Below are positions 4,683 through 47,229 of a DNA stretch of 64,000 nt, in pieces. The notes beneath the pieces were generated by a model. It was not told the DNA's origin, ran no database searches, and saw nothing but the letters and a program-made list of their open reading frames with translations. Every line of letters begins with the position of its first letter. Within the stretch, counting starts at the first letter, position 1. The stretch is from NCBI GenBank assembly GCA_035235625.1, contig CP141143.1, forward strand, positions 42,021,178-42,085,177, given 5' to 3'. The stretch is from Saururus chinensis (taxonomy: Eukaryota > Streptophyta > Magnoliopsida > Piperales > Saururaceae). Position numbers and translations under genes: made by a program.

Positions 4683-4908
4683 CTTGTCCTCAGCATTACA
4701 ATGGTGCTGGTAGATTGTTCGCAAGAAGCAGTACCGCTCAAACAACGGATTGATATCTCTGTGGTTGTCTGTGAGGAAGGTAGTGACGGTGTAGTGAAGC
4801 CAATCGAGCTCAAACCTGATTGCTTTGTGGCAAAAAAGGAAAATCATGATTGGAGAATTCGCTAAGGACGCCATTATCGGGAGGACTCTGTGCTGAAGCC
4901 CGTTAATG
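4683..4908 (-). pseudogene. BRUTUS-like hemerythrin exon 1, 3' part (split by MULE-1)
   Basis: The minus strand encodes SPIMIFLFCHKAIRFELDWL, then INPLFERYCFLRTIYQHHCN and AEDK, the first helices of the hemerythrin (HHE) domain of plant BRUTUS/BTS-like iron-sensing E3 ligases. The histidines in FCHKA and YQHHCNAED are the expected metal ligands. Translation after residue 64 of the local ORF (4874 downward) stops resembling the family exactly at GAGGACAAG|GTATTG, a good splice donor at 4683. The first codons lie on the far side of MULE-1 (19028-19046). Joined in thought, they read MAMPLTGFSTESSR and then a stop, with the hemerythrin frame offset by one base. So besides the 14 kb insertion there is a frameshift, and no later exon is visible. 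Known: BTS proteins bind iron through tandem hemerythrin repeats and end in CHY/RING zinc fingers. Inferred: a truncated, dead copy. Confidence 0.8.
4900..4908. repeat. MULE-1 target-site duplication, left
   Basis: CCGTTAATG directly before the left terminal repeat. The same nine bases follow the right terminal repeat at 19028-19036. They lie in codons 4-6 of the BRUTUS-like exon. Confidence 0.95.
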
Positions 4909-4950
4909 GAAAAAATTTTAGAAATAGACTCAACAAATGTCGAAATTAGA
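4909..4950 (+). repeat. MULE-1 left terminal inverted repeat
   Basis: About 40 bp complementary to 18986-19027, sharing TTTTAGAAATAGACTCAACA and ATGTCG. The left end of MULE-2 (47964) carries the same block with ACTCCACAAATGTCCG. Confidence 0.93.
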
Positions 4951-4984
4951 TTGATACCATATGACCTAGTAGATGGAATAATAC

Positions 4985-6600
4985 GAAGTTAACTGATACA
5001 TCCTAACTATTGACTGGTAGATGGTAAGAGGATTATATTTTTTGAAGTACATTGCGAGTTCATTAGATTTGCAATAGTTATGTTTACATATGGGTGGATA
5101 AATAAGAATGTTATTAAGTTAATATGTCAACTTGATCTTCTGTGTTTGGTGCTTAGTTAGTATGCTTGTAATATATTTTAATAGATGGAAAGTAAGTAAA
5201 TGAATAATATGTGTTGTTGTTAGGGTAAGTAAGGAGAATAAACATAATTAGTTTTATTCATGCCTATGATGTGATTTAATATCTAGCGTGTAGGAGACCA
5301 TATAACCTAGTTTATATGGTTAAAACAAATGTAACTGATGAATCCTAACTGTTGACTGGTAGATGGTAGGAGGTTTTTCATTTTTCAAAGTACATTGTGT
5401 GGTCATTAGATTTGCTCATGATGGGTTTACAAGGTAGGTTTGAATGTTGTGATATGCTATATAACGAGTAGTATACCATATGACCTAGTAGATGGGATAA
5501 TACAAAGTTAACTAATACATCCTAACTGTTGACTGGCAGATGGTAAGAGGCTTATATTTTCCGAAGTACATTTGGGTGATCATTAGATTTGCGCAATTTG
5601 TGTTATACTATCATGAGTATGGTGTGATCTAATATTTATTGACGACAATACCGTATAACCTAGAATATATGGTTAGAAGATTGTTAACTGATTTCAATTA
5701 ATTGTTGACTGCTAGTTAACTGATTTCGACTAAATCTATCCCTTCACTTCACCGTAGTACACTTATATGTTCACCTCCCCGAGGCATGCAAGGGGCAGCA
5801 GAGGAGAAGCCAGGGCAGAGACCAAGTAGGTGGAGGCCAACATTGAGGTGCCAGATAGTTTCACAGTGTATAGAGTGATTATGCTAGATCAAAAGATGGG
5901 ATGTATTTGGAGAGGAAAATTCTACACATAACATAGTTTCTTCATTAGGCGTTGGTGGTTGCAGGTAGAAGTATAAAACCATAATTCCTATCGACTCGGA
6001 CAATGAAGATGTTAAACTTAAGGTGGGGAACATAAATATGGTATTACACCATATCTGTGTTTCCCACCTTACATTTAAGATATTCATTGTCTGAGTCGAT
6101 AGTAATTATGGTTTTATACTTCCTCTCGCCACTAGCAACGCCTAATGATTAAACTTTGTAATGTGCATGACTGATTGCTCTCCAAATCAACTACATTATC
6201 TGATATAGAATAATCACTCAATATAATCAACAAAAGAAAATGTATGAACATATTGTCATATACTGCCGACATCAAATCATATGCCTCACATGATAGAGTT
6301 AATGATATTTTGTAAGAATATATGTAATTAGTTTTATTCAGGATGATGCGACCATATGACCTAGAATATATATATCGTTAAACCAAAGTTAACTGATATG
6401 GGCTACCTGCTGACTGGTAGATGTTAGTAGGTTATTATTTGTTGAAATACATTGTGTATTCATTAGTTTTGAGCAAGATATGTTTACAAGGTAGGTTACA
6501 ATCATGTGATATGATATTAGTGAGGACGAGACCAGCAAACCTAGAGTGTAAGTTAACCGATACTGGCTAACGGATGACTGGTAGATGGTAGCTAGCTGAT
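4985..6600 (+). repeat. Left cluster of TAACTG-triplet motifs in MULE-1
   Basis: A motif of about 35 bp, GTTAACTGAT, 6-8 bases, then CTAACTGTTGACTGGTAG, often followed by ATGGTA(A/G)GAGG, recurs near 4988, 5331, 5507, 5690, 6367 and 6551, always in plus orientation. Each copy contains three TAACTG/TGACTG hexamers. The surrounding DNA (ATATGACCTAG..., AAGTACATT...GTTCATTAGATTTG) is also repeated, so the left arm looks built from decayed units of about 200-400 bp. The same motif recurs reversed at the other end of the element. Confidence 0.85.
5873..6219. repeat. Long inverted repeat (hairpin 1) in MULE-1
   Basis: Arms of about 170 bp fold around ATATGGT-ATTAC-ACCATAT (6036-6054). The left arm runs from GAGTGATTATGCTAGATCAA (5873), and the right arm ends AATCACTC (6219). 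Pairing is strong for the inner 130 bp and weaker outside. The arms look like a former coding exon: the left arm reads EVPDSFTVYRVIMLDQKMGC and then, in another frame, KYKTIIPIDSDNEDVK. A transcript would form a long double-stranded stem able to feed siRNA production. Confidence 0.85.
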
Positions 6601-6764
6601 ATATTACGAATTAAATTTTGGCTCATTAATTTTATTATTGATTTGAAGGGGCAGTGGAGGAAACACTAGAGCTGAATGATCAGGTCGTTGGACTTGGACG
6701 TTGAGGTGCCGGCAAGCTTCATAGTGGATAGAGTGATTATGCTAGATAAAAAAATGGGATGTAC

Positions 6765-7068
6765 TTGGAGAGCAATAATTCTACACATAACAAAGTTTCT
6801 TTGTTAGGCGGTGGTGGTGGCATGCAGAAGAAAGAAAGCTATAATTATCATAGACTCAAAGTCTGAAGATGATAAATCTAATGTGAGAAATGATATGTTA
6901 TACAATCATGAAATAACTCAGTGATAGTATAACATATCGGTTCTCACCTTAGACTTAGCATCTTCAAACTTTGAGTTTATGATAATTATAGGTGTGTACT
7001 TCTTTTTCTTGCCACCACCACCTCCTAATGATTAAACTTTGTAATGTGCATGACTGATTGCTCTCCAA
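6765..7068. repeat. Long inverted repeat (hairpin 2) in MULE-1
   Basis: A diverged second copy of hairpin 1. The arms pair from TGGAGAGCAAT (6765) to ATTGCTCTCCA (7068), with the loop AATCATGAAATAACTCAGTG between GATATGTTATAC and GTATAACATATC. The left arm reads EVPASFIVDRVIMLDKKMGC and AIIIIDSKSEDDK, parallel to hairpin 1. The right arm read on the minus strand gives GGGGGKKKKYTPIIIINS. Confidence 0.85.
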
Positions 7069-7469
7069 TTCAGTTACATGTAATCACATACCGCACATCA
7101 TAGACTTAATTATATTTTGTATCTTCAGCATCACTTGGTCACGGTGGATAATGTATACCCAAATGTATTTAATGGTTAGCAAATACAGTTTGGTTGATAT
7201 TGTACAAGCGAATGTTTCACAGGGTTAGAACTGCCATAATTTATTGATTATGGTGAGTGGATTGGTGGAAATATAAATAGTTTTTAATGCATTCATATAC
7301 AATTCCGTTGTTGTTTTAATGATGATGATAAATATTATTTAGAACAATATAAAAGGAAAAGCTACAGCTTCCCAAAGACGTCATTAAAAACACAGATAGA
7401 GTTAAATAAATTCAATATCGATGGTCAAAAATTTTATTTTTGTTGGTTGGGGCAATTACGAAAGCGTCA

Positions 7470-8000
7470 TGTTAATATGAGCCCAGGTTCACGTACACGC
7501 ACGTCTGGCCCGGCTCTATGGACAATCAAATATACATCTGGATTGGGTATAATACTCATATAACGGGTCTCATATAGCCTGGGCACATGCATATGTGCAT
7601 TAGCCCGGGCTCATATAAACGGTACCGAAAAGGAAAAAGTTTATATAAGAGCCCGGGCTCACACATGTCTACGTGAGCCCTGGCTGCACGGCCAATCTGA
7701 TGTACATCCAATGGCCCATATTACTCATAAAAATGGGTCTGATATAGCCTAGTCACATGCATGTGTGCATTAGCCAGGGCTCATATAAATGGTACTCTAA
7801 ACAAAAAATTTATAGGAGCCTGGAAATGCGTGCTTCTACTTGATCCTAGGCTCCACGGCCAATCGGATGTACATCCGATGGCCCGTAAAACATAGGGTCA
7901 TTTAAACCCTTGACTATTATGGGTCATCGGATCTAAATCGAACTAATTGCCCATACAGCCAGGGCTCACGTAGATGCGCGTGTGCACGGGCTCCTATAAA
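7470..8000. promoter_or_regulatory. Cluster of GAGCCCGGGCTC palindromes upstream of transposase
   Basis: About ten full or partial copies of the 12-bp palindrome GAGCCCGGGCTC lie near 7480, 7509, 7601, 7650, 7673, 7771, 7816, 7850, 7960 and 7986. They are interleaved with GCACATGCATGTGTGCATTA and with ATCGGATGTACATCCGAT (about 7860). The block ends in GGGCTCCTATAAACTTTTTC, a possible TATA box at about 7989, and precedes the transposase 5' region. MULE-2 has the same arrangement at 51675-52205. A promoter or transposase-binding role is inferred from position and palindromic structure only. Confidence 0.55.
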
Positions 8001-8763
8001 CTTTTTCCTTTATAATATATGCATTTTGCATCATATTTCCATGGTGTATCAAGAGAATCAATAATCATCGCCATGTTTGATAAGTCCACACGCGCGCTGC
8101 ATATAGTAGACATGGGCCATACCTCATCATAAATGTGAAAACCGTGAAAAACCCTGACGCACTTTCTTAACATCCATCCGAAGGTTTCTTCCTGGGCTAA
8201 CTGCTGAGGTATTCTCTTACGACTCCATATTCTCGTCTCCCTACTGGTAGATCAAATGACTTAGGTTGGCGGAAGGTGGATGTCGAATAGTAGTCTCTGC
8301 ATATGGACGCATGGAGGAAGACACAGATAGTCGAGTTTCTACCTAAAGGTGTCCCTACTGGAACAATGGTAATGTTGGATGTGGAGAATACGTTAATGTT
8401 TGTACTTTTGGATGAACTACTTCTTACCTTATATGCTCTGCAGATGAAACAACAACGGCAGCTAATTTTTTAGTGTGGAGATGGTGGGCGAAAGCTTTAA
8501 CTGATCCGGCTCAATTGATAACTGTTAGTGGCGTTTAACATAGGTAACTCGCGAGTACACAAAATCTTGTCTTGTGTATGTACTTATATGGGTCGGTGTG
8601 CCGCATGTACTACTGTAATACATGAAGTTATGTTTGAGGATAGGAATGAAATTGATGCCCGTACACACAAAGTTGTTTCAATTTTGCGACGGATATCATT
8701 AACTGATAAGTATCAACTGATAACTGCCAGAGCCTAACTGACATAACTATTGGGTGCATTCAG

Positions 8764-11700
8764 ATGGATATAGATGAGCAGCCTCTATTATGTGTGTGGG
8801 AGGGGAATGGGATGCAAGTCGATACAAGTATGATTGCTCCAATGCCAAGTCAGATCTCATATTTGTTAGAAGCTCATTGACGTATGAATCCTTGGTGCCC
8901 ATGGTTTACAAATTAATAGGATGTTGTAGCAGGGAATACTCTTTAAAGATGAGTTTTACATATCCTTTGGCAATTCCCCTAGACGTACCTCCAATGAAAA
9001 TATGTGATACTAAGACTCTTCAGTGTTTTCTGCGATATGCCAAGACCAGGCACAATGGTCTACCATTGATAATAACCAAAGTGCGACATGTACATGTGTT
9101 CCATGAATGTGAGCTGAATATTAATGTATCCGAATCAAAGATGAACGAGTCGATTATTTTCAATGATGCCAAAGAGCTTAGTAGACATGCAAATGAAGTG
9201 AAGCATACGGTGGAAGTGAAGGAAGTAGGAGTGAGGAATGCCATTGAAACCAATGATAATTTGACTAGTGCTGCTTCGGATATGGACATATTGTACATGA
9301 ACACAATGGATTTCAGTGACGACCAGGAAGTAGATGACTTACTCCATGAGGCCAGGGAGTTGGAAGCAAAGAAACGTCATCCTATTTACGTAAATTTGCA
9401 ATCCGATTTTGATGAAGAACTAGTAGATGTCCCCATTGCAAGGCTTGAAGTGGATACGGTGAACATCTCAAATGTTGAGGAGAATAATGCTAACTCAAAT
9501 GAGGGTAATGATGCCAGAGGAGCTAATGATGAAGTTCGTAGGCCAAACATGATGTATAACATAGACGAAGAAGATGTCATCTACAATGGACGGCAAGAGC
9601 ATCTTGAGGAAGACATTAAATGTGATAAATTTGAATTACATGATTATGATGAGGATGTCTACATTGTTGGAGGGGATGATGACATTTGGTATGGAAATGA
9701 TCAAAATGAGACTGCCGGTGGAAGAGGTCCGCCTCCAAACTCAAATAAAGTGACCAACATTGACATGGCTGAAAGAAAGTGGTAAGAAGTATATAATCAT
9801 TATTATTATCTGTTTTGTTTGCGAATTTATGCATGTGTAGTAACGGTTTAGCGGTTTTAAATGCAGTGACGATGAAGTACCAAGAAGAGCTAATGCAGTA
9901 ATGTCACTCATAAATGAGGGAGATGGTGGTGGGAGGGGGAAAGCACCACCAACAAGTAGCAATTTTGGGAAAACTTCGGCACCAGAACAACTTCAAAGGT
10001 CATTTCATGTGCTTACGTAGTTAGTTAACTGATTATGCCTAACTTATAACTGTTTGTCTCATTCTAATACCTATCTAAATATAATCGTTCAGCAGATTGG
10101 ATGCGAATGTGTGTGTGAACGAAGAGCACAACATGGATGTCGAGGTTGATTTATATGACTATGGCAAAGATCCGAATATTGTTCTACTTGGGCAAGAGTT
10201 TATGGATAAGGACTCTCTAAAGCTACATGTACATAAGTATGCTAAGCATAATAACTTTGAGTTCAAGATAAAATATTCAAATAAATCTTGATTCACAGTT
10301 GTGTGCAATGTGTCTAGAGGTCCATGGAGGTTACATGTTGTGATAACTAATGGGTGTAGTATCTTCAAAGTGAAAGATATGAACAATGTTCATACATGTG
10401 GGAAACCAATATTTGGAGGAGATCATAAACAAGCAAAAGTGGGTATTATTGTTGACTTAGTGGTGAAACGACTTAGGAAACGTGTTGCTTATACTCCCAA
10501 GGATATTCAAGTTGATGTCGATTTGGAATATTGAGTTAAGATGAATTATTCGAAGGCATATAGGTCAAAGGTTGCGGCGTTTAACAAGTTAAGAGGATCC
10601 TACGAGTCATCGTATGCCGAGTTGGCTACATACTTATATGAGTTGGAGAAGGCAAATCCGGGCACCTCAACTGCTATCTAGTACGACTCATCGGATCTGA
10701 CATTCGAGAGATGCTTTGTTTCCTTTGGAGCAGCCATGGAGAACTTCAAGAAGTACATGCGACGGGTTATATGTATAGATGACACATTCTTGAAAGGAAG
10801 GTACAAAGGGACTTTGTTCGTGATATCTACATTGGATAGTGAGAACCATATATACCCAATTGCTTGTGCTATCGGAGAAGGAGAGAATAATGATGCATGG
10901 GGATGGGTCCTTGCACATTTGTAAACCCGACTTGGTTACTTGGAGGGCCTAGTGATACTTTCTAATCAACATAGATCAATCAAATCACAAGTAGCTCAAA
11001 TGTTTCCATATGCCGCACATGGATATTGTGCATTTCACATATCTCAAAACATGTTTGCACATTTTAAAGACAGAGGTTTGAATAGTAACTTCTTCAAGGG
11101 GCTAAAGCATTTAGGCCGGAGACATATATAGAAGAAATGACCATCATTGAGGAGAAAAACCCTGAGGCCTATAAGTAGTTAACTGGAATTGATAAGTCAC
11201 GGTGGGTTAATGCTTACTTTCCATTGCCCAGGTATAATATAATTGGAATTGATAAGTCTTCAATGGAATGCTTAGTGAGCAATGACACTTCCCCATTGTC
11301 ATGATCATTAAGGCAATCCGTTTGAAGGCTCAAGAGATGTGGTTCAAGCGTGGATTAGAGGCACAACAATGGAAGGGATACTTGACTAAATATGCCAAAG
11401 CAAAGATTCAAAAGTGCAATGAAGCAGCTAGAGGGATGATTTGTTATGCCATAAGTGGCCATGAGGTCTTAACGAGGTCTAAAAGAGGGGATGATCAAGT
11501 TGACCTTATTGCAAAGACTTGTATATGTAGAAAGTTTCAACAAATGGAGTTGCCATGTGAACATGCGTTGGCAGCATGTGGCCACCGAAGACTAAATTAT
11601 GTTGACTATTGTTCCCTGTTTTACACAACGGAAACTTATAGGCAAATCTATAGCAAGGGAGTTTATCCGATACTTGAACATAAAAGATGGGAGACTCCTG

Positions 11701-12182
11701 AAGACATGAAGAGCCTTAAGTTGAGGCCTCCAAAAGATAAGGCACGACCAGGCTGGATAAAGAAGAAGAGAATTCTATCTCGAGGTGAAGAAAAATGGCA
11801 AGTACAATGTCGTATGTGCAAACAATATGGTCACTATCACAATACTTGTACCGCGGTAATTGGAGAGAACCCGGTAGGGGGGCATACTCCTCTTCCATCC
11901 ACAGCTACACCCGCTTCATCTCATGGCCAACCCCCATCACCAACTCATGCTAACCAAAAGTTGTCAACATTTACATAATTCCCACATGTAGTATACAAGG
12001 TGGGTGGTAAAGAAATCAGGAAGAAGCGTCATCCATGTCCAATCTAGTCGAAGATCAGCCATCTAACCCCAAAGGGGAAGAGAAAGAAGAAAATGAGACA
12101 AGTGGTTGAGCTCAATGCATGTACGCTTGAGGACAAATTGTGCAAGAAACCAATCGCAGTGGACAAAGTCGTACCATTGTAG
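8764..12182 (+). pseudogene. MULE-1 MURA-like transposase, broken
   Basis: Three exons can be read: 8764-9781, 9867-9998 and 10096-12182, with donors AAGTG|GTAAG and CAAAG|GTCAT and acceptors TGCAG and AGCAG. Exon 1 begins MDIDEQPLLCVW and has an acidic C-terminal half. Exon 3 carries a MuDR-type DNA-binding domain (LLGQEFMDKDSLKLHVHKYA), the MULE DDE core (ICIDDTFLKGRYKG and AAHGYCAFH), a SWIM finger (CICRKFQQMELPCEHALAA) and a C-terminal CCHC knuckle (CRMCKQYGHYHNTC). Compared with MULE-2 there is a 1-bp deletion near 8800, stops at 10289 (CGA to TGA), 10532, 10679 (CAG to TAG), 10922 and 11175 (TGG to TAG), a frameshift near 11100, and local scrambling at 11230-11255. The second catalytic Asp is Asn (ILSNQHRSI) here and in MULE-2. 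Known role of the family: excision and insertion at the TIRs. This copy cannot supply it. Confidence 0.92.
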
Positions 12183-12946
12183 TTTGCTTGATGGCATATT
12201 TTGGAAAAATCTTTATTTCTGATTGTAGCACAATATGTTGGCAATTCAACCATAAATTCCATGTGCTGAAACTTCATCTCTCAAAGTGTTTTTGTTCTCT
12301 AAATTATTATAAAGCAATACTTCAAGTACCAGTTTATAATAACAATCTCCTTATTTATCACCAGGCGAATTGGTTTAAGGGTTAGAAGCTGTAAAAAAAA
12401 ACCCAATCAAGTCATGCCTCCAGATTTGAGTTCCGTCCCAAAGGGATTTCATAGGCAAATCACCTGTTATTTGAACGCTAACGATTTTTAGCAATGACAC
12501 ATCTTTATCAGCTGAATGAAATTATAAATATATTGATTCTTATGAATGACAAATTCTTAATAGCTCAACGGACTTCATTACTGCACATGCACAATTTGGA
12601 CCAAATCTAACCAATCAGGAACAATATCTCATTCCTATCGTACCATCAAATACCACAATGACCCTTGTCCATTATCATCTACAATTTCGATGTGTTATCA
12701 GAACAACATCATACAAAGAATATTGATTTCTCATCAATCAACATCAGCCAAAAACTATTTGAAACCATCAAATTCTATTAGTCTTGTAACAACACAAATA
12801 ACTTCAAGATTCACCTTAAACATTAAACAAACTGATATGCCTCCATAAATTATTCATACAAACCATCAGTGAAACACAAACCGAATCACATAGTCAAGGA
12901 CAAACACTATCAAGTTAAGCCACATCTACTGTCAAGAAAATGGTTG
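12183..12946. other. Intergenic DNA between the convergent MULE genes
   Basis: AT-rich stretch between the transposase stop and the Ulp1 stop, presumably the 3' UTRs of both genes. MULE-2 keeps it at 61722-62450. No distinct structure seen. Confidence 0.6.
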
Positions 12947-15900
12947 TCATATGGAATTTTGCAGAATTTGGTATGCAACCCTATGTCTCATGATGCGCAT
13001 GTCCTCTCCGGTAAAGCTAAATTGGTACCCATGCAACAGGTACCACATATAAATGCATATGCAGACACCGCAATCATTGTTGTTGATTTGTTGTGGGTGT
13101 CCGGTTATCTCTCTCATCGGGAGGCGCAAGGTAGCAGCTGCTGCATATCCCAATTTCAACAAAACTATTGGAAAAACATGTATGAGAATCGCCAATTTCT
13201 TGTAGTACTGCTCTACCTCAACTCCAGAGTAATATGGGTCCATGATGTATAGGACATCCTTCCTCAAGTCTAGAAGAATGAGAGTCCAATGGTTACCATT
13301 TACATGAAGAGGGAAGTGGTGGACCTCATATTCCCGGAAGTCTTTTTCATTCACCTTCATCAACTTCAGCATATTGGATGGAACTTCGGCCATGTGTTTG
13401 CAACGGCAGCTCTAGAGACAGTTGCATCATTTTCCTTCATCGATGAGTAAATGTTGAGGAGGGTAGATGCATCCATCCTCATAAGCTCTTGTGGAATTAG
13501 AAACAGACGTCAGTCAAGTAGTTAGTAGTTGTCAGTTAAATATGATATTAAAAACAAATGAAGGCCTACCATAAAATGTACAAGATGGAAGGCTTGCTTA
13601 TTAGTTGGGTTCCCAAGGGCCTTCTTCCGCAATGCCAACACATACGCATCAATATGCTATATCATATGAATCGAACATCGAATGAGTATCGTATATAATA
13701 GGGATGAAAATTAGAATCACTATTATTGTGTACAACTCAAATTCGCACATACATTATCCCAAAGCCACCTATGCTACTGCATAATGGACCGTATAAACTC
13801 CGATGTCAGCTGGATTCCACCAATTGCCGGCCAACTGTTCAATTATGATTGCTCCAAATGTCAACACATATTTGTGGCAATGGAAAATGAAATTAATCGA
13901 TATGAAATGAAATGTGTATGTAACCGAGTACTATGCTATAACTCACTCAGATTTCCAACCCTTTTTAAGGCTCTTTCGAATGGTTTTTTCTTCTTCTGGT
14001 GTTAACTTATGTGGTTTAGGACATGCCAACTCCAACAAGGCTATCTCTAAGAGAGCAACAAGTCCACATATCTTGCTTCTGTGGACTTCTTGCCTTGCTG
14101 GATTGTCCCTTAGATTGGTAGGCAGTACCTAAATGTCCCCCTTCTTCAATTTGATCCAGTAAATGGTTCGCCAATTCAATGTTAGCCTGCCCATCTTCTT
14201 CTCCCTCGCATTGAACATCGTCGTCGTTTAAGGGCTCGCCAGCAATCTCATCCTCTTCCACATCACTTGGTCCCCTCACCAACCTCCTCTTACTTCTCCT
14301 TAGTGCCGTATAAGGGGTCCTTACATATTTGCTGGCAGTCCTCTTCCTACCATGGACATTGGGGGGCACAACCTCTTTGACTGTTGGGGCATCACTCCCA
14401 ATGTCAACCCCTGCCTCCCCAACCGCCACACCAGATGCACCATCAAATGGGAGAACTACATCTCTGTGACTATTTCCTTTGAAAAAATGCACTTATGAGT
14501 AAAAGTGCACATCATAATATAAAAGTATTAGGACAATGTGCGGCAATAACGAAAGAAATGTATAGCATTGAGGTATTCAAAACCACATCCTTCATATGAA
14601 TAAAATTGTGAGGTAACTAACCTGTGGACAAGAAGATTCATTGATGGGGTTTTCATGGGCTCCATCGTCAGTAACATAATCATATCCAGCATCCTTCCTG
14701 TCCTGGTCAATATTGTAAACCATACTATAATTATTGTCAAAATACAAGAATAATTAAACTTAACTCTAGTAAGAAGTCATGATATTTAATATACTGTAGC
14801 TAACATCAAATGGGTCTGATGGCCTCCCCTTCATGGACAACAAAGCTGAAACATCTTCGGACAATTTGTCTACCTTGGCCTCCAACCGGTCGAATGCATC
14901 CTGTTTTAGCTAAATGAGGTCAATTGTGCCAGCTAGCTTGACTAATGTGTCCTTTATCCAATCCAATTGGATATGCACATTTTTGTCTTTCTGGGGCATG
15001 GGGTTGTCTACTTCCATCTTGCCGCACCTTATCAACAAAAGAAACAACTGTTTCATGGCCTTGCCGAGTCTCCTCCTCCATATCCACTTCTACTTGTTCC
15101 TCTGCCCCTTTCAGGGCACCACCGATGGGGAGCTCAGATTTATCAAAAATTATCCGGTCCCCCTTAAGAAAATGCTTCAGCCCTATGGCTAATTGGACAA
15201 TCTCCTCATCAGACTCGGCTTGGGTCAACTCCAAGCGCCTGTGCACCAACACCTAAAAGACAAAATATGTTCATTATCAGTCATCATATATGTCGTTTGC
15301 AAATTATCAATCATTCTAAGTCGACAAATGACAATATATTACCTTCTTCTCGCCAAAAATGGCTTTGTCAATTGCATCATAACTGGGCTTCTTATAGTTA
15401 GCCCAATTCAGCAATCTAGGATAAACATCTTGTACTCTTCTCGCACATAAGTCCCCAAGCAGAGGAATCCTTTCCATTGCCCAAACCTGCATATTCAAAC
15501 CATGGACATAAATGTCATAATCGCATATGCAGCATAGTACATTAAAACCTCAATCAGAATACCCAAAAAATGTACCAACAGTGCCGGTACAAATCCATGC
15601 ACAATGTAAATGGTTTTAGTAAGGGCCTTCCTTGCTTCCTCCAAGCCATGGAGGGTGTTCCAATATGCAATGTTACCCCATGGATATGAATTGAACTCCT
15701 CCACATCATCAGCCAACAAAAAAAAACCGCCGGTCCACCTTATGCTCCCACCCTCTGCCCGCAATGAAAGAAGCCAACACTAGTATGCGGGCCAACTTCA
15801 CCGCGTCTTCATCACTTTTGCTTATGATGATCTTCTGGTATATTTGCTCCTTCGTAATGTGAAGCTTCTCCTTGCCGAACACCCTACAACGTAGGGAGTC

Positions 15901-16282
15901 CTTTCTCAAAACTTTTGGCACTGTTGGAAGGGATGGGAGCACATCAGCCATACGCAGACCGGTTACTTGGGCAAATTCGATCGGTAACAACTTCATCGAA
16001 TAGGTTTCCATCACTTGAAACCTATACTCTCCTTGATGCATTTTTATGATGTGGTGCAAAGCTTGAAGTGGGAACATGAACTTCTCTATGTCGAGCTGCA
16101 AGTATTTGCCAAAACATGATCTTTCAAATAGTGTTGCTTGTCTTTTATGCTTATTGAAATGCTCTTTGAGCCTCTGTATGTAAGCATATGTTGATTTGGG
16201 TTGAGGGTCACCCTCATGGGCTCTACCCTTATCACTTTCAACAAGCTTGAAGATCACTTCCACATTACTTGGTAGCTTCACC

Positions 16283-18410
16283 CTGCAATGTTTAACAATT
16301 CACTTAAATGGGCATTACTTGGTATCTTCAAGCTGAGCATGGGTCATAATTTGGCATGTAACCCACACGCACAACATACATATCAGAAAATATTTCAATG
16401 AACAACACCTATTTTGAATCACACAATCAAATTTTGTAGTATATCAAACACATGCACACTAAGCACCAAATACACAATATCAGTTTAACAATATAACTTA
16501 CATACGCTCTCCAAAAAATCCTTATCTACACTTATATAAACCTCACTTGATCAAATTAACTTACCTCACAATGTAATATTAGTACAAAAATAATTATCAA
16601 ATGTAATGCACTATCAGTTGACTATTTTATGAAAGTTATATCATAAGACATCAAGCCTAAAGCCGGCACAATGCACTTTGTACAGTAATAAAAGATGCCT
16701 ATAGACAACCAGTCAACCGTTAGGTCCTATCAGTTAACCTTGTTTTAAGCATGTGTACTTGCTTAAATGGTCTACCCTTGATTTTCCTCATATCACATAT
16801 CACAGAGAAGGGTAAAAAAGGGCCACTATGGAGCAAACAATTTACAAATGTAGCCTAAAGCTGTAGACAATGCAATTTGCACAGCAATAAAAGATGCCTA
16901 AAGACTACCAGTCAATAATTAGGCCCTATCAGTTAACATTGTTTTAAGCATGTGTACTTGCTTAAAGGGTCTACCCTTGATTTTCATCATATCACATATC
17001 ACAGAAAATGGTAAAAAAAGCCACTAGTTAGCAAACAATTTACAGATGCAGCCTAAAGCCGGCACAATGCACTTTGTACAACAATAAAAGATGCCTATAG
17101 ACTACCAGTCAATAGTTAGGCCCTATCAGTTAACCTTGTTTTAAACATGTGTACTTGCTTAAATGGTTTACCCTTGATTTTCCTCATATCATATATCACA
17201 GAGAAGGGTAAAAAAAGACCACTATGGAGCAAACAATTTACAGATGTAGCCAAAAGCTATAGACAATGCAATTTGCACAGCAATAAAAGATGCCTAAAGA
17301 CTACCAGTCAACAGTTAGGACCTATCTGTTAACCTTGTTTTAAGCACGTGTACTTGCTTAAATGGTCTACCCTGGATTTTCATCATATCACATATCACAG
17401 AGAATGGTAAAAAAAGGGTACTAGTGAGCAAACAATTTTCAGATGTAGCCTAAAGCCGGCACAATGCAATTTGCACAACAATAAAAGATGCCTAAAGACT
17501 ACCAGTCAACAGTTAGGCCCTATCAGTTAACCTTGTTTTAAGCATGTGCACTTGCATAAATGGTCTACCCTTGATTTTCATCATATCACATATCACAGAG
17601 AATGGTAAAAAAAGGCAACTGTTGAGCAAACAATTTTTAGATGTAGCCTAGCAACTACATTTCAACCCTTCCTTAATTTTGTCACTTTGTTTTACATTCC
17701 ATAAATGTCATCCATGTAAGCTAAGCCCCAAACACACATTATACAATCGAGAACATGAAAGACCCACACTCGTATGAATCTACACAAATATAGACTTAAA
17801 TATATCAAGTCTAAAGTCGGCACAATGTACATTGCACATCAATAGAAGATGCCTAAAGCCTACCAGTCAATAGCTAGGCCCTATCAGTTAACCTTGTTTT
17901 AAGCATGTGTCCTTTACTTAAATGGTCTACCCTTGACTAAGCACTAAACACACAATCTACGTTTGACAAGATCAATCTACCCATGTATATACTAGACTAT
18001 ATAGAGTTTATTGACCACACATTTATTTTCAAGACTAAACTATAATGTACCAGTCAACAGTTAGGCCATATCAGTTAAATTCGTCTATGGCATACAATAA
18101 TGCTTCTAACATAGCACGGGTCCAACTTAACTAATCCGCTATATTTTTCTTCCTCATCCTACATACAATATTTTTTTGCATTAGAGATTTCCGTTTTCAA
18201 AATTTATCATGAGATCACATACTTCAAATATTTAAATCAATTTTATCTTACGACATCACATACACTAATCATAGCAGTACATACGGCCAATTTACACACC
18301 TATTATGAATTTCATCACACAATCTCAATAAATTTCAAACCAAACTATATAATACAGCTAAACAAGATATTCGCTTCTTCAATTAACCATACATAGTTGT
18401 AGGATCTCAC
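16283..18410 (-). other. First intron of the MULE-1 Ulp1 gene
   Basis: Donor AAATGGCAAG|GTGAGATC at 18411/18410 and acceptor ACATTGCAG|GGTGAAG at 16283/16282. Joining them restores the codon AGG and an ATG for an exon that otherwise begins with GTG. The intron hosts the 198-bp array and reversed TAACTG motifs. DNA at 18420-18985, beyond exon 1, would be 5' UTR, promoter and subterminal sequence. Confidence 0.65.
16653..17660. repeat. 198-bp tandem array, alternating A/B units
   Basis: Five units start near 16653, 16851, 17050, 17248 and 17447, with partial copies at 17643 and 17808. Each holds ACAATGCA(C/A)TTTG(T/C)ACA, AATAAAAGATGCCTA, ACCAGTCAACAGTTAGGCCC, TATCAGTTAACCTTGTTTTA and ATCATATCACATATCACAGA. 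Units alternate between GCCGGCAC-type and GCTGTAGAC-type starts (A-B-A-B-A), implying growth by a dimer of about 396 bp. Each unit carries one copy of the TAACTG motif in reverse orientation. Confidence 0.9.
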
Positions 18411-18419
18411 CTTGCCATT

Positions 18420-18985
18420 TATGTCATCTTCTATTGATCAACGGATGGGGAGATTGGTCAGACGGCCAAGTGAAGATGCAGAATGTAGATAGGGCAAAAC
18501 ACCGAAATGCGGGATGCAGCCGGCTGGAAGAGAGGGATAGTGGGAATGGAGCTTAGCAAAATGTCTTCGGAGGGGGGAAAGGTGGCCACAATGTATGTCT
18601 CCGGTTGTCAAATGACTACCGCAGTGAGATTGCAGGAGTGGATAGCGAAGGATGGAACAAAATGGGAACTTTCTTTGCAATACCGGAGGAGCAAAAAATG
18701 TGGGACTAGATGACTGATAGCAGAGAAGAGGAAGGTGAAGGATGGGATATAAAAGGCTGGATGAGGGGTTGCAGGAAGGGAATGCGATTCTCTTAACGGT
18801 GGAGAGCAGTCGCGAGTGCCAGAGGGAAAACCGAAATCTGAATTTTGGGTTGCACCCGGTGAAGTAGGGCTGAGTCTATTCATTTTCATTGCCCTAAGGG
18901 TATTATCGGCAATTCAAGCGTGCATGTGGGAAAGTGGAACGTGATTAAGTCTAATTGTGCAAAATCAGAGTACCTGGCCTATTTT
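18420..18985. other. MULE-1 right subterminal region
   Basis: Mixed-composition DNA upstream of Ulp1 exon 1 (minus strand), presumably its promoter and leader. On the plus strand there is a TATAAAAGG word at about 18749 pointing out of the element; no gene follows it convincingly. Short ORFs here lack family signals. Confidence 0.5.
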
Positions 18986-19027
18986 TGTAATTCCGACATT
19001 TGTTGAGTCTATTTCTAAAAACTTTTC
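18986..19027 (-). repeat. MULE-1 right terminal inverted repeat
   Basis: Reverse complement of the left terminal repeat with a few mismatches. Read inward it continues into ACAAAAATAGG and a subterminal segment whose TTTTGCACAATTAGACTTA resembles the MULE-2 left subterminal TTTTGCAAAATTAGACTTA. The two elements therefore share more than the core TIR. Confidence 0.93.
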
Positions 19028-19036
19028 CCGTTAATG
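19028..19036. repeat. MULE-1 target-site duplication, right
   Basis: CCGTTAATG, identical to 4900-4908. Identity of both copies suggests the insertion is not very ancient. Confidence 0.95.
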
Positions 19037-31045: not shown

Positions 31046-33849
31046 ACGAAACAGTCATCTTCTTCCTTTCGCAAAATCAAACCAAAACACCATAGAATAC
31101 ACTTCAAATCCACATCTAACACCCTAAACATCATCAAAAGTCCTCCTTGACTTCCAGAATATCAAACCAAACCATAATAATGCAAAACCCTAAGAAATCG
31201 GGATTAAATAATTCCATTTTCTAATCTTACCATTAACACACTAAATCAAGCATACCATTTCGAAATAAGCAAAAAAATGAAGAGTTTTACCATGGATAGA
31301 CAGAGATTTTGAAGACCCATTACCTCAGCACTTAATTAAGCTCGGATTGAAGAGTCACCCTTCTTGAAATCCTTGAAAACACAATGAGTTTGAATTAAAC
31401 TCTAATGGAAATCGATTTACTCAAGAAATCCCTAATTAAACCTTAGATCTAGGGCTTGTTGGTAGTAAAAATCGAATTTTGAATGTTAGGGTTTGTAGTA
31501 AAACACAAATCAGTAGCTTTTGATGGTCAAAAATGAATTGAATCAAGGGGAAAATGGTAGATTTGGAAGAAATTAAGAGAAAAGCCATGGATTAGTGCTT
31601 AATTAGAGCAAGCTTACCTTAATCGGCTTCTAATTCGGGCCTAAGTGGGGATTAGGCCAGCCCTCCTTCCTTAGCCTATTCCCAAAAATGGAAATGGCTC
31701 TGGTTTGCCCTTTTATAGTAAGGGTTGGGGTAGACATAGGTAAGTTTTGGGGTGTAAATATGAAAAGTAGGCCAAAAGTGGGTATTTTGCAAATTTAAGC
31801 ACAAATTAAGCCTAATAAAATTCTGAAAATTTTTGTGTGACCTTAAGTATATGTCTAGGTTGATTTGACATGAAAATAAAATTTTCGACGGTGGGGCCCA
31901 CAGGGGTCCCGCCAAAACCCTAATTTTTGGGAAAATAGTGAAAATTCCGAAAAATCTCAAAAATTCACATTTGATTAAAAACACTTAAAACCACTAATAT
32001 TGGAGTTAATTTTGGTTAAAACTATCAAAAACTCTATTTATTTACGAAATCACCGAATAAGATCAGAAAACACGTAAATCTCACGATAATCCATAATTAA
32101 ATAAAAATCAAAACCGGTTTAAAGATGAGGGTCCTTACACCTTGGCCAGTGACGGTCTCATGGCCTTTGCTCGACCCTAAACCTTCTCTCTACCCCTTCC
32201 GTGTGAGATGCATAGCCGCCCGTACCTCTTGTTTTGGTTGTGGGTGATCGGCAATGTTGCAGCTTCAATTGGCCACCATTAGGGCCTTAGCCCTGTCGGC
32301 CTTTTGTGGGCTTTGGGCCTACACCATCTGGCCATCTCCCCTTCCCCTTTGGCCGCGTGTGCATGTAGTTGCGCGTGCAAGTTAGGGTTAAGGTGCCGCT
32401 TTTGCATCGCCTGACCGTATGATGGCTACGCCATCGTCAAGATTTGTTCATTAGAGCTCCTCCACCTTTCCTTTGTCCTTGAGTGTCACCCCATGCACTC
32501 TACCCTTATGTGGGCCCTTGTAAATGAAGAATCAATGTTGTTGGGTGCTGACCGATTTTGACATCTTGTAACCGGTTGAGTATTTTTCAATCGCCAGTCA
32601 AATTTTAGTGTGTACGCCTAGACCTTCGGTCACACCTGCCACTCGTTGGCACGATCTTTCTCCCGGCCACCCCTAGTATGCCACCGTGGATTGCGGATTT
32701 TCCGCATTGACATGTATCACCCCTGTTTGGCCGCGAGTAGTCCCGGCACTTCCTAAAACCTTAGGACAGCAGCTCTCTCAACTTAACAATGGTTTTGACC
32801 GCCAACTCTGCCACCGTCGTATGCTCGCCATCAAATGTCATGATTACGAGGTAGGGGAGCTCTGAACTCATAATTTCATGATAGCATGCTTTGAATAAGT
32901 AGCAGCATGCTAGGATTATATGATTTCTTATTTTGGATATTAAATCATGGCCTGTTTGCATGATGTAAGATAATGAATTATGCCACGTTGGGATACATAT
33001 ATGTATGTGAGTTGTAAGCATGTTTTATGTATGCAAAATATGCATGCACTAGTGATGGCTAGTAAATATGTAAGTATGCTACGTCTGTGTTTTATGGACA
33101 TGCTAGTGATGGCTAGCGATTGTGAGTTAGTTACGTATGTGTGCTGTGTGTGGGAGAAGTTTGGGAAACAAACAATAAGAGATGACAGAGGGTTGGTACG
33201 AAGTTGGATGTAGATTTGGATGTGTAAGCATGTGACAAAAGACAGCGGACATAAGTTTGATAGGTGAGGTTTTGAGTGGATTGGTTTAGAGCGACGTCAG
33301 GGGTTCGGTATCTAAGTGGACTTAGGCTTGGAGCTTTATGGCGGTTTATTAGACAGTAAGAGCATGCATAATTGTATAAGCATAACGTATAGATTATGAA
33401 GTGAAAAGTAAGCATAATAAATGAGGTATTAAGTAAGAGGGTGATAACGGGGATCTACTGTGAGGAGCTCAGTTTGATGATGTATGTGTAAGATGTTTTG
33501 GCTATAAGGTGGATGGCGGAGACTGTATGATTATGTAAGCATTTGATGTACGGTGAGTTGATCATGACATGGACGGGTAAGAGAAGTTTGTTGCCCTAAC
33601 GAACTAGGGTTTCGATCGGGCTCAACTTCGGTTTGATTAGTTGAGGACTATGAGTTTGTGTGGCATAATTGTACCACATAATATACTTAATTCAAACTTG
33701 AATTATGAGAAAGCTAATAATAGCATTGTGAGTTTGAGACCTGAGGGTTCAACGGATTAAGTTCCGTGTTTGAGCTAGCCAATAATGAGTCAACTGAGCA
33801 TTTCTCATGTCTTGCCATGGTATTTATCCTGCGGGATGTCTTCTGTGTG

Positions 33850-34130
33850 CTGTATAGAGCACCAAATGTCTGATGCTCTGTTGAAAGCGATGCATGTTTT
33901 CAATTTAGTCTGTGTGTTGTATGTAGCCCAGACGTCTAATGCTCTATTGAGAGCAATGTATGTTTTCAATTTGATCTGTGTGTTATATTAAGCCTAAACG
34001 TTTGATGCTCTGTTGAGAGCATTGTATGATTCCTCCCAAGAGTAACATTGTATGATTCCTGCCCAAGAGTGACATTGTATGATTCCGCCCAAGAGGCACT
34101 GTATGATTTCTGCCCAAGAGTGGCACTGGC
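33850..34130 (+). repeat. TGATGCTCTGTTGAGAGC and CCCAAGAGTGGCAC repeats in LTR A
   Basis: Three units of about 60 bp (TGATGCTCTGTTGAAAGCGA near 33870, then near 33938 and 34002), each followed by TGTATG(T)TTTC and a CTGTGTGTTGTAT word, then four short ATTC(C)GCCCAAGAG units to 34120. The same module is present in LTR B at 43585-43880. Confidence 0.8.
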
Positions 34131-35218
34131 ACTATAAGACCCCTTATGTGTGGGTGTATATTTGCATGCTCAGGTAAGTAGTGTCATGGATCTACTCTTA
34201 CCTGTTTGATCCTGTGCCCCATAAGCATAGGTGTGCCTTGCCTTCGACAAAGTCCATGGCGTCTCCCTTGAGGTTAAGGTGATGCCCCAGTGACATTCTT
34301 TTCTTTTTTGACACTGGAGCTTATTAGTTGTAATGAGCTTCAGTGGTCGATAGTATGAGTACAATTGTAAGTGTATGTTTGAGTAAGACAGTAAGTGTAT
34401 GATTCTGAGAGGACTGTAAGTGTAAGATTGTACAAGTAAGGTTGTACAAGTATGTGTAAGGTATTGAGTATGTGTACGATGGTACGAGTAAGTTGTAAGA
34501 CCATGATTAAGGGTGTTTGTGTAAGTTTGCTTTCATTGGTGTGCTATGCATTATTATATACACATGTATATAATTATATTACATTGACTGCTTTATGTTT
34601 AAGTTGCATGAATGCATGTATATTATGAACTTATTGAGTTCACTATTTAGGATTCCCCTACTGGGTATTTTCCTATTGAGTATGAAAATACTCATTACCC
34701 TACTTTTTTAGCCCCGTTGTTCGGGAGGCTTTTGCAGGTTGTGTTGGAGAGCTCCTGAGGATGGATGCTCGTTTCTGTAAAGGATTGTTTATCCTTTGAT
34801 TTAGGTATAACCTTGACTCAATGTGAGTATCTTTTTATGCCACAATTTGATGTATTGGGTGAGATAAGATTTAAAGTGTATGTATTCTGGACTTTTAATT
34901 TGGATTAGACAGTGGGCTATTTATGGGACTTGTACTCAGGGATGCCTGGGAGTTATTTGTATATAAAAATTCATGAACCTGGTAATTTAGTCTTACGTTT
35001 GTTTTCGAGTAGCACCTAGGGATATTTGCTTTGGCCGTATGATATTTGATCGATTGATAAAAAATTTGGATGGAAAATTGATGTGTGATGTTTTAAATTA
35101 TAAACTGCTTTCATAGGTTTTGATTTCATCATTTTCTCTCCGATTTACAGTCGTTATGTTGCAACATAAAAAATTCGTGAATTTTAAGAAAATGTGATGA
35201 AAAATCTTGGGAGTTACA

Positions 35219-35419
35219 TTTACTCCTTCAACCAATTCACATGTGTGATTCTCATTTAACTCAAAGTGGGCTTGGGCTCTCTCTACCATATGGGCTTGAC
35301 CCACATAAATATTATGGGCTTAACCCATGTAAATAATATACCCACTTTAATGATATGGGCTTAACCCATTTAATATAATGCCCACTCCTAACACCACATT
35401 CACTAAAGTTGTTAGTGGT
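35219..35419. other. GGGCTTAACCC palindrome spacer
   Basis: Between LTR A and the duplicated segment, the word ATGGGCTT(G/A)ACCCA occurs three times about 30-50 bp apart. No gene. Confidence 0.6.
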
Positions 35420-38283
35420 ATAACTCTTCATAAGCAGTACATTTAGAGGGATACTACGTGTTGCCTAATTGATGTGTAACATGTCCATAACAACTCTTAA
35501 GTTGGAGCCTGAATTTCTTTTCTTCAGTTAGTCTCTCAAATGGGATCTCAATGCTCTAGCTAAAAGAAGTTACCCTTCAGAATTTGTCAATAGTGTTTTC
35601 CCCTTATGAAAATCTTTTAGAACATGGCTATATGTACCCCACTAAACTCCTCCATCCTCAAAATAGAGTAAAACATCTCCTATTTATTTTCTACTTAAGT
35701 ACATCAACATTCTTTCATTGATTTCTTCCTACTCCCTGATAAGTATGAAATATATATCTATTTTATATGTCTTTTTACCTTATTTGCTAGTATAGATTAG
35801 GTTAATTTAGAGTTAGTTATGGTTTATTTAGATTAAGATAGATATTAGTATTTTAGTTTAATTATTAATAATTTTGTAGTTATTAGTACTTTCGATATGT
35901 ATTTAAATCAAGTTGGAATTTTAGTGATATTCTACATGTCTAAAATATGATATTGTATATTTTGTAGGTAAAATGCGCTTATCAAGGTACTTGGACGATG
36001 TTTGAAATAATTCAAAATAGTCTTAACATACTTTAAAGTGATTTGGACAACTTTTCAGAGTTATAAACAAGTTAGAAATTAATATGAACATGAAGAAAAG
36101 CTTAATGAACAGAATATGGACTATCCAAAAAAACTGTCCAGATTGCATAAACAGTGTAGCCATTTGAACGGGATGTTTGAAGTATCAAACGGGATAACGT
36201 GATTTTGAAGAAAAACACAATATAGGTGTTCGAACGGGCATGCAGGGCGTTCGAAAAGGATAATGCGCAGTTTCCTAGTTTTAACCAATTTTCAATCCTT
36301 TTCATATTGGACTTCTTTCTCCGGCTCTTATGCCTATATAAAGACATATTTGGCTTGAAATTGGAGGATTCCAGTAGATTTTCTGAAGAGAAAAAAGAAG
36401 AAGAAGATGGAAGAAAACTCAAAGCTTTCAATAGAGATTCAAGTACTTTCTTCTACAATGGAAGGCTAGACTTTTCTTTTACTTAGGAGTTGATGAAGCT
36501 ATAGATAAGTTTCAGTTTCTTTTCTTTTTAATTTAGATCTCAATTGTGAATAATGATAATTGTATGATAAAAATTTCCTTTTTAATGGAAGAGCTTTTAA
36601 TGTTTATTCAAGTCTATGTTGATTTATTGTCTTGTAGATGATAGATTGATGTAGTTTTGATATTTTCATCAATTCTAATTTCTGTGATTTAGATGAGATG
36701 GTCATAGAATAGTTTTAATGTTCAAATAATTAATGACTTGGATGAGTTATACTAATATTAGACGGGTCATGCCTATAGCTAGTTTAGTGTAGATGATTCG
36801 TGCTATTGTCAAAGATAGTTCATGCCATGAATTTAATTAATGATTCTTTCTGAAGTAATTCTAGCTTATAGCTAAGAATACTTGTTCATATTCACACTAG
36901 ATTTAGATTAAAAGTTAAGGAATTGTTATGGTTCTATAGTGGATTCGATTTCCTAAGTAAATTCCATCATATTAATATCTTGTTTTTAAACTAGTTGATT
37001 CCTTTCTTTTGCTTAATTAAAGTTTAAGTTTGTTTTAGTTTTTAATCAATAAATTCTTCTTTAGATTTAGTAATAATTCATCCGTCCCTGAGGTTCAACA
37101 ACCTTTAAATACTCATCCTAGTACTATTACCTTGTACACTTGCAAAGGGTTTAATTATAAATGATCACTCCCTTAAGAATTGAACCTTAAAATATAAGCT
37201 GTTTTTCCAACTCCAGCAGCAATAACCTCCTCTTTACCCTCCTTTTTTTCTTTTTCGATATGGGCCAGCCAGGATTAGGCAATTTTGGCCACAACTAGCC
37301 GCTAGAGCCAGGCTAGGCCGGGACAAGTCTAGTCATGGCCATTGTGGTCAAGTTCGGCCAGCAGCCTTGCTACCGCCAAAGAGGGGGGGTTGTGGATGAG
37401 GAAGAGGGCTAAGGCTAGGTTGCCAATAACCATGCCAAAGAAGAAAGAGAGGGGAAAATGAGTTAAAGAGAAATTAAAATATATATTTAAATGTATGAAA
37501 TAAGTAAGCGATTTTAGTAGGTAGATTAGGTATAAATAGAAAATGGGAGACAAGAGGAAGTTAACCGGGTGGAAACAACTATGTTCTTATTTGTACGATC
37601 ACTATCTAGACTATTGAGAATCTGTCTTCATCAAAATAGGCTCACAAATAGATGGTAAAAGAAATCATAACTGAGTATTCTATTACAAGGAAACGACTCA
37701 TTACTCTGTAAAATTAAGCATCAAGCGTCGCGTGGTTGTTTTAATAATGCATAAAGATAGATACAAACAATGGTCCTTATAGTTAGGATACTCGTGCCCC
37801 TCAAACTTCAGAAGAGCAACATATTCTAATTCTCTCCGTTTTTTACAACTTTTACTAAATACTTTTTATATTCTCTACTGACAAGGATTGAAACTTGTAT
37901 GGGAGCCCTTGATACTTAAAATCAAAGATGTATATATTAATATATTATTACTCATTCTAATATGCGCCTACCACTCATGAGTAAAAGATTTATATAAATA
38001 ACTTATTCAAGACCCGTCAGTTAATACCAAAAACGCTGAACTTATGCTGTAACCATTTTGAATGAAAGACTTTGATGCGAATCGGACGGACTGACAGCAT
38101 CTGCTTCTACCTTTTTATATTTTTGTTTTTGGCGTTACATTTAAAGTGGTCCTATTAAAAAAATTTAAAAAATAACAATTGAACAAGGCTATAGTTAAGT
38201 AGAAACCATCTGCCTATATGTTGCAGCATCACGTGTGGTCCAGAGTACCTGAAAATTGAAGTATACGGTGTACAAAAATTCCG
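35420..38283 (+). repeat. Duplicated segment, copy 1 (LFS-like gene upstream region)
   Basis: From ATAACTCTTCATAAGCAGTA the sequence matches 45775-47214 nearly throughout, apart from the inserted solo LTR E (35737-37167). The match ends at CTGAAAATTGAAGTATA(C/G)GGTGTA, about 15 bp before the TATA box that serves the gene at 47297 in copy 2. Copy 1 has neither that TATA box nor the coding region. Confidence 0.92.
35737..37167 (+). mobile_element. Solo LTR E (1431 bp, TSD CTCCC)
   Basis: Starts TGATAAGTATGAAATATATA and ends AATTATAAATGATCA, with CTCCC at 35732-35736 and 37168-37172. Copy 2 of the duplicated segment has the uninterrupted site (TACTCCCCTAAGAATTG, about 46088). It contains an LTR-type promoter word GCCTATATAAAGACAT at about 36332. 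Length and style suit Athila/Tat-type Ty3 elements, but lineage is a guess. Confidence 0.93.
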
Positions 38284-42244: not shown

Positions 42245-42810
42245 TGCATGTGCTAGTGATGGCTAGCGTGCATGTTTGAAGTATGTTGGATTATGCATGT
42301 GCTAGTGATGGCTAGCGTGCATGTTTGAAGTATGTTGGATTATGCATGTGCTAGTGATGGCTAGCGTGCATGTTTGAAGTATGTTGGATTATGCATGTGC
42401 TAGTGATGGCTAGCGTGCATGTTTGGAGTATGTTGGATTATGCATGTGCTAGTGATGGCTAGCGTGCATGTTTGGAGTATGTATGGATTATGTATGTGCT
42501 AGTGATGACTAGCGTGTTTGTTGGTAAGTTTCGTATGTTGATTGAGTATGTGCTAGTGATGGCTAGCGTGTATGTTGACGTATGTATGCATGTGCTAGTG
42601 ATGGCTAGCGTGTATGTTTGAAGTATGTTTGGATTATGCATATACTAGTGATGGCTAGCGTGCATGTTTGGAGTATGTATGGATTCTGCATGTGCTAGTG
42701 ATGGCTAGCGTGTATGTTTGACGTATGTATGCATGTGCTAGTGATGACTAGCGTGTATGTTTGATGTATGTATAAATGTGTATGTATGCACTAGTGATGG
42801 CTAGTGAGCA
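42245..42810 (+). repeat. 49-bp minisatellite in LTR B
   Basis: About twelve units of GTGCTAGTGATGGCTAGCG plus a variable ~30-bp partner (TGCATGTTTGAAGTATGTTG...). The first five, from 42250, are spaced exactly 49 bp and are almost identical. Later ones vary from 44 to 54 bp. LTR A holds only two such words (about 33045-33115). Confidence 0.93.
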
Positions 42811-43584
42811 TGTTTGTAAGTTACGTATGTATGACAGTATGTATATGTTATATATATTTGTGATAGACATACGTATGTATGATGACTATTTGACTATGCT
42901 ATGGATATGTGTAAGTGTATGTGGGCAGAGGTATGGGTGATGGACAGTAAGACGTGACAAAGGTTTTGTCTGGATTTGGATATGGATGTGTAAGCGTATG
43001 ACAGATGATAGAGGATATGAGTACGATGGGCAAGGATTTGAATGAATTATTTTGGATTAGAGCACATGTTGGGGGATTGTCAAACATTAAGAGTGTCCAT
43101 AATTGTACAAGCATAACGTACACATTATGAAGTAAAATGTAAGCATAAAAAGTAAGATATAAGTAAGAGGGCGACAACTGGGTTGGCTCTAAGGAGCTTC
43201 ATTTGATGATGTCAGTATAAGATGATTTGGCCATAAGGTGGATGGCGAAGTATGTAAAACTGTAAGGGTTTGATGTATGATGTGTTATGATCATGATGTG
43301 GATGGGTAAGTGAAGTCTGCTGCCTTGACGAACTGGGGTTTCGATCAGGTTCAGCTTCAGTTTGATCAGTCGAGGACTGTGAGTTTGTGTGCCATAATTG
43401 TACCGCATAATATACTTAATTCAAACTTGAATTATAAGCACAGTTAATGATAGCGTTGTAAGTTTGAGACCTGAGGGTTCAACGGATTGAGTTCCGTGTT
43501 GAGCTAGCCGATAATGAGTCGGCTAAGCATTTCTCATGTCTTGCCATGGTGTTTATCCTGCAGGATGTTGTTTGTGTGCTGTAT

Positions 43585-43970
43585 AGAGCACTGGACGTCT
43601 GATGCTCTATTGAGAGCGACATATATTTCCGATTTGGTCTGCGTGCTATATAAGCCCAAACGTTTGATGCTCTGTTGAGAGCGATGTATGTTTCCGACTT
43701 TGTCTGTGTGTTGTATAAAGCCTAGACGTCTGATGCTCTGTTGAGAGCGACGTATGTTTTCGATTTGGTCTGTGTGCTGTATAAGCCCAGACGTTTGATG
43801 CTCTGTTGAGAGCGTTGTATGATTCCACCCAAGAGTGGCACTGTATGTTTCTGCCCAAGAGTGGCACTAGCACTATAAGACCCATTATGGTGGGCGAATC
43901 TATGGCACTATAAGACCCATTATGGTGGGCGAATCTATGTCACTATAAGACCCATTATGTGTGGGTGTTT
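43585..43970 (+). repeat. TGATGCTCT(A/G)TTGAGAGCG and CACTATAAGACCCATTATG repeats in LTR B
   Basis: Four ~65-bp units with TGATGCTCTGTTGAGAGCG (about 43598, 43665, 43732, 43797). Then CACTATAAGACCCATTATGG three times (about 43871, 43911, 43932), each followed by TGGGCGAATCTATG or TGTGGGTG. Confidence 0.85.
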
Positions 43971-47214: not shown

Positions 47215-47229
47215 AGGAATAATAGAATC

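Follow-up and report, generated by a model that had tools for sequence, protein, structure and literature searches.

VANC proteins act as anti-silencing proteins of Arabidopsis VANDAL elements, and VANC21 binds a short motif whose arrayed copies share one orientation in introns, intergenic DNA, and terminal non-coding DNA (Hosaka et al. 2017, PMC5735166). In the same paper, the motif of VANC21 is given as YAGTATTAY and those of VANC6 as AGTTGTCC and AGTTGTAC, related VANDAL families carry other motifs, and VANC proteins are drawn with DUF1985 (DUF287 is drawn in its Fig. 5). According to a review (PMC13317346), VANDALs also include VANC genes that carry Ulp1 (KIU) and direct hypomethylation in a motif-specific manner; the same source describes Ulp1-carrying Mutator-like elements (MULEs) as Kaonashi/KIU in Arabidopsis, as well as from melon, rice, and grapevine. 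The locus studied here is a 64-kb stretch of Saururus chinensis contig CP141143.1 (hereafter the window), in which two MULEs, MULE-1 and MULE-2, carry a mirrored array of short motif triads. By analogy with VANC, it appears probable that this array is the target-site set of the element's own DUF1985-Ulp1 anti-silencing protein.

Several features are shared with VANC and VANDAL: a MULE-type element encodes a DUF1985 protein, a short motif is repeated in tandem across non-coding DNA, putative introns included, and the motif differs between related families, being YRACTG in heptads in the family of MULE-1 (group A) and AACTR at 7-8 bases in a sister family (group B). However, terminal inverted repeats (TIRs) and a Ulp1 domain are present here, and the motif is arranged in a fixed-register triad with a single polarity flip between the element halves. 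Since it has TIRs, the element is not classed as a VANDAL. With Kaonashi/KIU it has in common that a MULE carries a VANC-like (DUF1985) and Ulp1 gene, whereas the Arabidopsis elements are described as non-TIR (PMC13317346). The motifs of VANC21 (reversed, RTAATACTR) and VANC6 (reversed, GTACAACT) resemble the present words through an ACT core; this likeness was set aside as suggestive only, since short overlaps are common by chance. Sasaki et al., in 2022, reportedly found that motif sequence, density, and helical periodicity set specificity; the triad, the register change, and the orientation flip described below may be new, provisionally, pending comparison with the coverage of that study.

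MULE-1 is a Mutator-like element, being a homologue of MULE-2, which contains PF10551, and having a 9-bp target-site duplication. Each triad consists of three YRACTG hexamers at offsets 0, 14, and 21, in a seven-base register. With up to three mismatches, CTAACTGTTGACTGG has 19 matches in the window against 1.58 expected, and none of 100 shuffles reached 19. Thirteen of these matches are inside MULE-1, six on the plus strand (5003-6581) and seven on the minus strand (16709-18064), as the original prediction of a mirrored, repeated motif had it. About 18 copies had been claimed; 17 triads were counted, nine on the plus strand (4990, 5332, 5509, 5685, 6390, 6554, 8498, 8700, and 10026; none extends beyond 10052), followed by eight on the minus strand (13511, 16710, 16909, 17106, 17305, 17503, 17864, and 18051). 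Four copies first reported as degenerate (8495, 8697, 10018, and 13503) are the triads at 8498, 8700, 10026, and 13511, the last of which has its final hexamer shifted one base from the register. The avoidance of exons also holds, as no triad overlaps the 5199 bp taken as coding from open frames (0/17), although the triads lie in arrays and the 17 copies are thus not independent placements for this count. MULE-2, whose right half lies beyond the window (locus L028), shows the predicted similarity, with seven plus sites followed by seven minus sites.

The same arrangement was found across the genome (516 Mb, 11 contigs). A set of eleven copies (MULE-1, MULE-2, and E1-E9; 209 kb with flanks) contains 152 triads at a threshold of at least 15/18, and the reversed-sequence control contains none; E1-E9 were picked for exact 15-mers, a choice that biases some units towards conservation and clusters towards plus-minus pairs. 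Same-strand YRACTG words in these copies are spaced at 7 (68 pairs), 14 (71), and 21 bases (85), and every remaining spacing up to 70 bases has at most six pairs. Eight alternative offset pairs that are not multiples of seven gave 0-7 matches each, and four in multiples of seven gave 34-84, in part identical sites read again. Every plus site lies to the left of every minus site in 11/11 copies. At a laxer threshold of 14/18, two plus matches break this pattern: E7_8986, which is off-register where the E7 array reads minus, and E6_794, which is outside the left array. The whole genome holds 476 exact copies of the 15-mer (229 plus, 247 minus; reversed control, 0). Among the first 100 of these 476 places there are 56 clusters, and each of the 21 multi-site clusters keeps to one strand. 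Of 12 pairs of neighbouring clusters separated by 4-25 kb, ten read plus then minus (nine of the ten are copies E1-E9), one plus-plus, and one minus-plus. Among 209 aligned sites, some of them off-register readings, the third hexamer has G as its second base in 131 and is exactly TGACTG in 87. Frequent hexamer variants are TAACTA and TAATTG, which would be expected if CTG sites in silenced copies are methylated and decay.

A genome search with a transposase piece, in which 150 of 3175 candidates were scored, divided the transposases by identity into group A (n = 117, at least 62%) and group B (n = 33, about 48-55%). Group B is a sister MULE family with a transposase about 52% identical to that of group A. 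Its copy B1 (L029) has no triads at 14/18 or above and B2 (L030) has two, scoring 14 and 16; both carry many AACTR words (AACTA and AACTG) spaced by 7 or 8 bases, and the units that hold them differ in sequence. The words read plus on the left and minus on the right, starting at the gap that precedes the main transposase frame, with the exception in B2 of a weak three-word minus cluster (2833-2877, spacings 36 and 4) inside the plus part. None of the word clusters listed for B1 overlaps its Ulp1 or transposase frames. In a third copy (L031, L032), the left part and the first minus cluster agree, and the remainder of the right part is missing. In group B, where both genes are on the plus strand, the words change orientation inside the transposase gene; therefore, polarity tracks position in the element and not the transcription of its genes. 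The group B 22-mer AAAACTATAAAACTGGAAAACT occurs 174 times in the genome (control, 0).

DUF1985 and Ulp1 domains are encoded by both families. Three of four group A pieces scanned for DUF1985 scored at or above the Pfam cut-off of 35.1 bits (38.3, 35.1, and 39.0), the frameshifted piece of MULE-1 itself scored 19.1, below the cut-off, and group B scored 43.5. DUF287 has been gained and lost among VANC; it was not reported in the accessory-gene pieces scanned here, which cover these genes incompletely. In the genome search for DUF1985, 150 of 957 candidates were scored, so that the following linkage counts are lower bounds; a search of 14 control genomes found none. A scored DUF1985 match lies within 20 kb of the transposase in at least 30 of 117 group A and at least 17 of 33 group B loci. 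It is downstream and on the opposite strand in 29/30 of the former (the exception is 18.9 kb away), and upstream and on the same strand in 17/17 of the latter. Among the first 100 of the 174 places of the 22-mer, at least 22 of 45 clusters have a scored DUF1985 match no further than 3 kb away, and all 22 are upstream of it by 40-1170 bp, on its own strand (chance per cluster, 0.0017). For the group A 15-mer, a DUF1985 match was located no more than 20 kb from at least 13 of the 56 clusters (chance per cluster, 0.0116).

A protein-binding array, as originally suggested, is also our best reading; the host factor proposed at that time is less likely as the binder than the element's own DUF1985-Ulp1 protein, and the transposase, the other candidate, is a serious rival. 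The sites between open frames in both genes, which are presumably introns, support a VANC-type function, since VANC21 likewise has its motifs in introns. The DUF1985-Ulp1 protein would bind YRACTG words, and three words at 0, 14, and 21 would form one docking site, in which roughly two helical turns separate the outer words. Many such sites, subterminal and in non-coding parts of the genes, would provide avidity and family specificity. The bound protein may then clear the element's non-coding DNA of silencing marks or keep it free of them, also upstream of the DUF1985 gene, allowing both element genes to be expressed. Tandem duplication would multiply the docking sites, and joint drift of protein and motif would leave every family with a word and register of its own.

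The strongest alternative, though unlikely, is that the MULE transposase binds the hexamers as subterminal repeats, with the mirrored polarity helping to pair the two ends. CACTA and hAT elements have transposase-binding subterminal repeats, and the sites of TNPA in En/Spm and of Ac are similar to the present ones as short motifs in many subterminal copies, inverted between ends. Most sites here are subterminal and inverted between halves, the order of neighbouring clusters is the expected one, and the MULE-2 transposase pieces include PF03108 (MuDR family DNA-binding) in addition to PF10551 (E 2e-19). However, unlike the sites of TNPA and Ac, the present sites are found between coding frames and ahead of the accessory gene as well. 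Mid-element, between-frame sites are found in both families and are unnecessary for end recognition, and the exact 22-mer sites of group B cluster upstream of DUF1985.

Another proposal, less likely again, is that spacing itself is the code: DUF1985 proteins would all recognise an ACT(R) core, and each family would distinguish its own DNA from that of others mainly by register and polarity, with registers of 7, 8, or about 22 bases and a single flip per element marking its two halves.

It is very unlikely that the array has no function and is one ancestral repeat copied by duplication and conversion. The left and right units are homologous over about 80 bp beyond the core, and Tandem Repeats Finder detects a 199-bp tandem array in the window; the units are thus old copies of one repeat, and simple duplication explains some of their number. 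Decay of a single duplicated repeat, which the original prediction had named as the contrary explanation, does not account for the hexamers. When units were chosen by flank sequence alone and compared with placements at least 27 bases away, the hexamers were less variable than all distant placements in three sets (0/61, 0/59, and 0/60 as conserved). Hexamer diversity was 0.118 in 51 right units (0.208 upstream, 0.187 downstream), 0.124 in 63 right units (0.196 and 0.263), and 0.188 in 53 left units (0.265 and 0.369), and the spacer within the left core, at 0.450, was 2.4 times as variable as the hexamers. An earlier version with loose seeds gathered mostly chance matches (245, 126, and 95 'units'), twice failed to find the core, and once gave 25/64 placements as conserved as the core; longer seeds were used instead. 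The internal sites keep the triad spacing while sharing little else with the subterminal units, although they decay almost as quickly as their flanks. Polarity preserved in all eleven copies and a second family that follows the same plan with other units also argue against mere duplication.

Least likely of all are host transcription-factor sites driving both element genes: TAACTG and TTGACT match the MYB core YAACKG and the W-box-like core TTGACT, and the arrays lie upstream of both genes, but the MYB-type core of the original prediction and the W-box-like alternative were both rejected, since the G of the third hexamer and the AACTA of the sister family do not fit YAACKG, two families in one host with identical factors use different words (AACTA/AACTG at 7-8 bases in group B), and group B sites between transposase frames are oriented against the gene.

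Some observations weigh against recognition of the array by the DUF1985-Ulp1 protein. TIRs are present, unlike in VANDALs. The spacer of the right units is conserved as well as the hexamers (0.096 and 0.122). Orthologous internal sites are mildly conserved (core 0.105-0.133 vs flank 0.101-0.172; four sites, 8-11 copies), and site 10024 shows no extra conservation between copies; with transitions excluded, 15/201, 3/122, 40/67, and 0/40 other placements were as conserved as the internal cores. This comparison is independent of the 15-mer selection and gives a weaker result than the flank-seeded test. AlphaFold modelling of the DUF1985 region (nine sequences or pieces, one genome) gave no confident fold (predicted local distance difference test score, 42.7), so that structure gives no indication of DNA binding. 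Between groups A and B, DUF1985 (47%) and the DNA-binding part of the transposase (50%) have diverged alike; therefore, divergence does not single out the protein that binds the array.

In a further family C (L033, L034), near-palindromic CAACGTTG words form an array, and 7/35 of its clusters lie 4.6-8.6 kb downstream of DUF1985 (chance, 0.007 per cluster). In its multi-site clusters the strand flips once from minus to plus in 13/20, is unchanged in 7/20, and never changes from plus to minus. Since these elements are not delimited, they were kept out of the main argument. Acidic, repeat-rich open frames lie beside DUF1985 and Ulp1 frames (L029:123-770, L031:5343-5858, and L033:5922-6227), and in having them the DUF1985 genes of group B and family C resemble the variable, repeat-bearing regions of VANC.

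Features of the locus are listed in the table. The open frames of the transposase and accessory genes of MULE-1 are disrupted by stops; the ATG at 8764 is taken as the transposase start, and the Peptidase_C48 and DUF1985 regions presumably form one gene. Of the SWIM domains found in MULE-1 and MULE-2, only that of MULE-1 exceeds the cut-off. An imperfect foldback of about 355 bp (5869-6223, 79% self-complementary) lies in the left part of MULE-1, together with a second diverged copy of it (about 6646-7079, 73%). At 7475-8012, a GC-rich unit is present in diverged direct and inverted copies about 170 bp apart. Within MULE-2, frames at 56263-60946 resemble a gypsy-type retrotransposon by eye and are bordered by direct repeats of about 310-330 bp with 91% identity. 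Elsewhere in the window, 32193-38278 and 41373-47215 are the arms of a large direct duplication that has diverged (piecewise identity, 74-96%), and the second arm holds a 49-bp tandem array of 12 copies (42227-42821).

Table. Coordinates of element parts, genes, and motif sites (window positions unless a locus is named)
Feature	Position	Strand	Remarks
MULE-1 element	4909-19027		Has TIRs and a target-site duplication
Left target-site duplication CCGTTAATG	4900-4908		9 bp; right copy 19028-19036
Left TIR, MULE-1	4909-4948	+	37/40 bases match right repeat
Right TIR, MULE-1	18988-19027	-	
Transposase gene, MULE-1	8764-11978	+	Frame interrupted by stops; SWIM PF04434 present
DUF1985-Ulp1 gene, MULE-1	12950-16299	-	Broken; converges on transposase gene
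Peptidase_C48 (Ulp1) part of accessory gene, MULE-1	12950-13411	-	
DUF1985 region of accessory gene, MULE-1	15498-16299	-	
Left subterminal array, MULE-1	4988-6590	+	Six triads; unit period about 177 bp where regular
Right subterminal array, MULE-1	16654-18079	-	Seven triads, five with a unit length near 198 bp; lies immediately upstream of DUF1985 frame
Internal triad, 5' region of transposase gene	8498-8524	+	Next triad 202 bp further
Internal triad with fourth in-register hexamer (offset 35)	8700-8740	+	Just before ATG 8764
Internal triad between two transposase open frames	10026-10052	+	Putative intron
Internal site beside Ulp1 frame	13511-13538	-	Hexamers at 0, 7, 14, 22; putative intron
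MULE-2 left array	50062-50790	+	Four triads
MULE-2 internal triads	52708, 52910, 54227		
Family C CAACGTTG array	L033:9200-10000 and L034:1-600		

VANC-type self-recognition is understood from work in Arabidopsis. With the same plan and different words, the two families of this other genome are natural pairs for the study of co-change between DUF1985 protein and motif, and the rigid register and the flip are directly testable with synthetic arrays.

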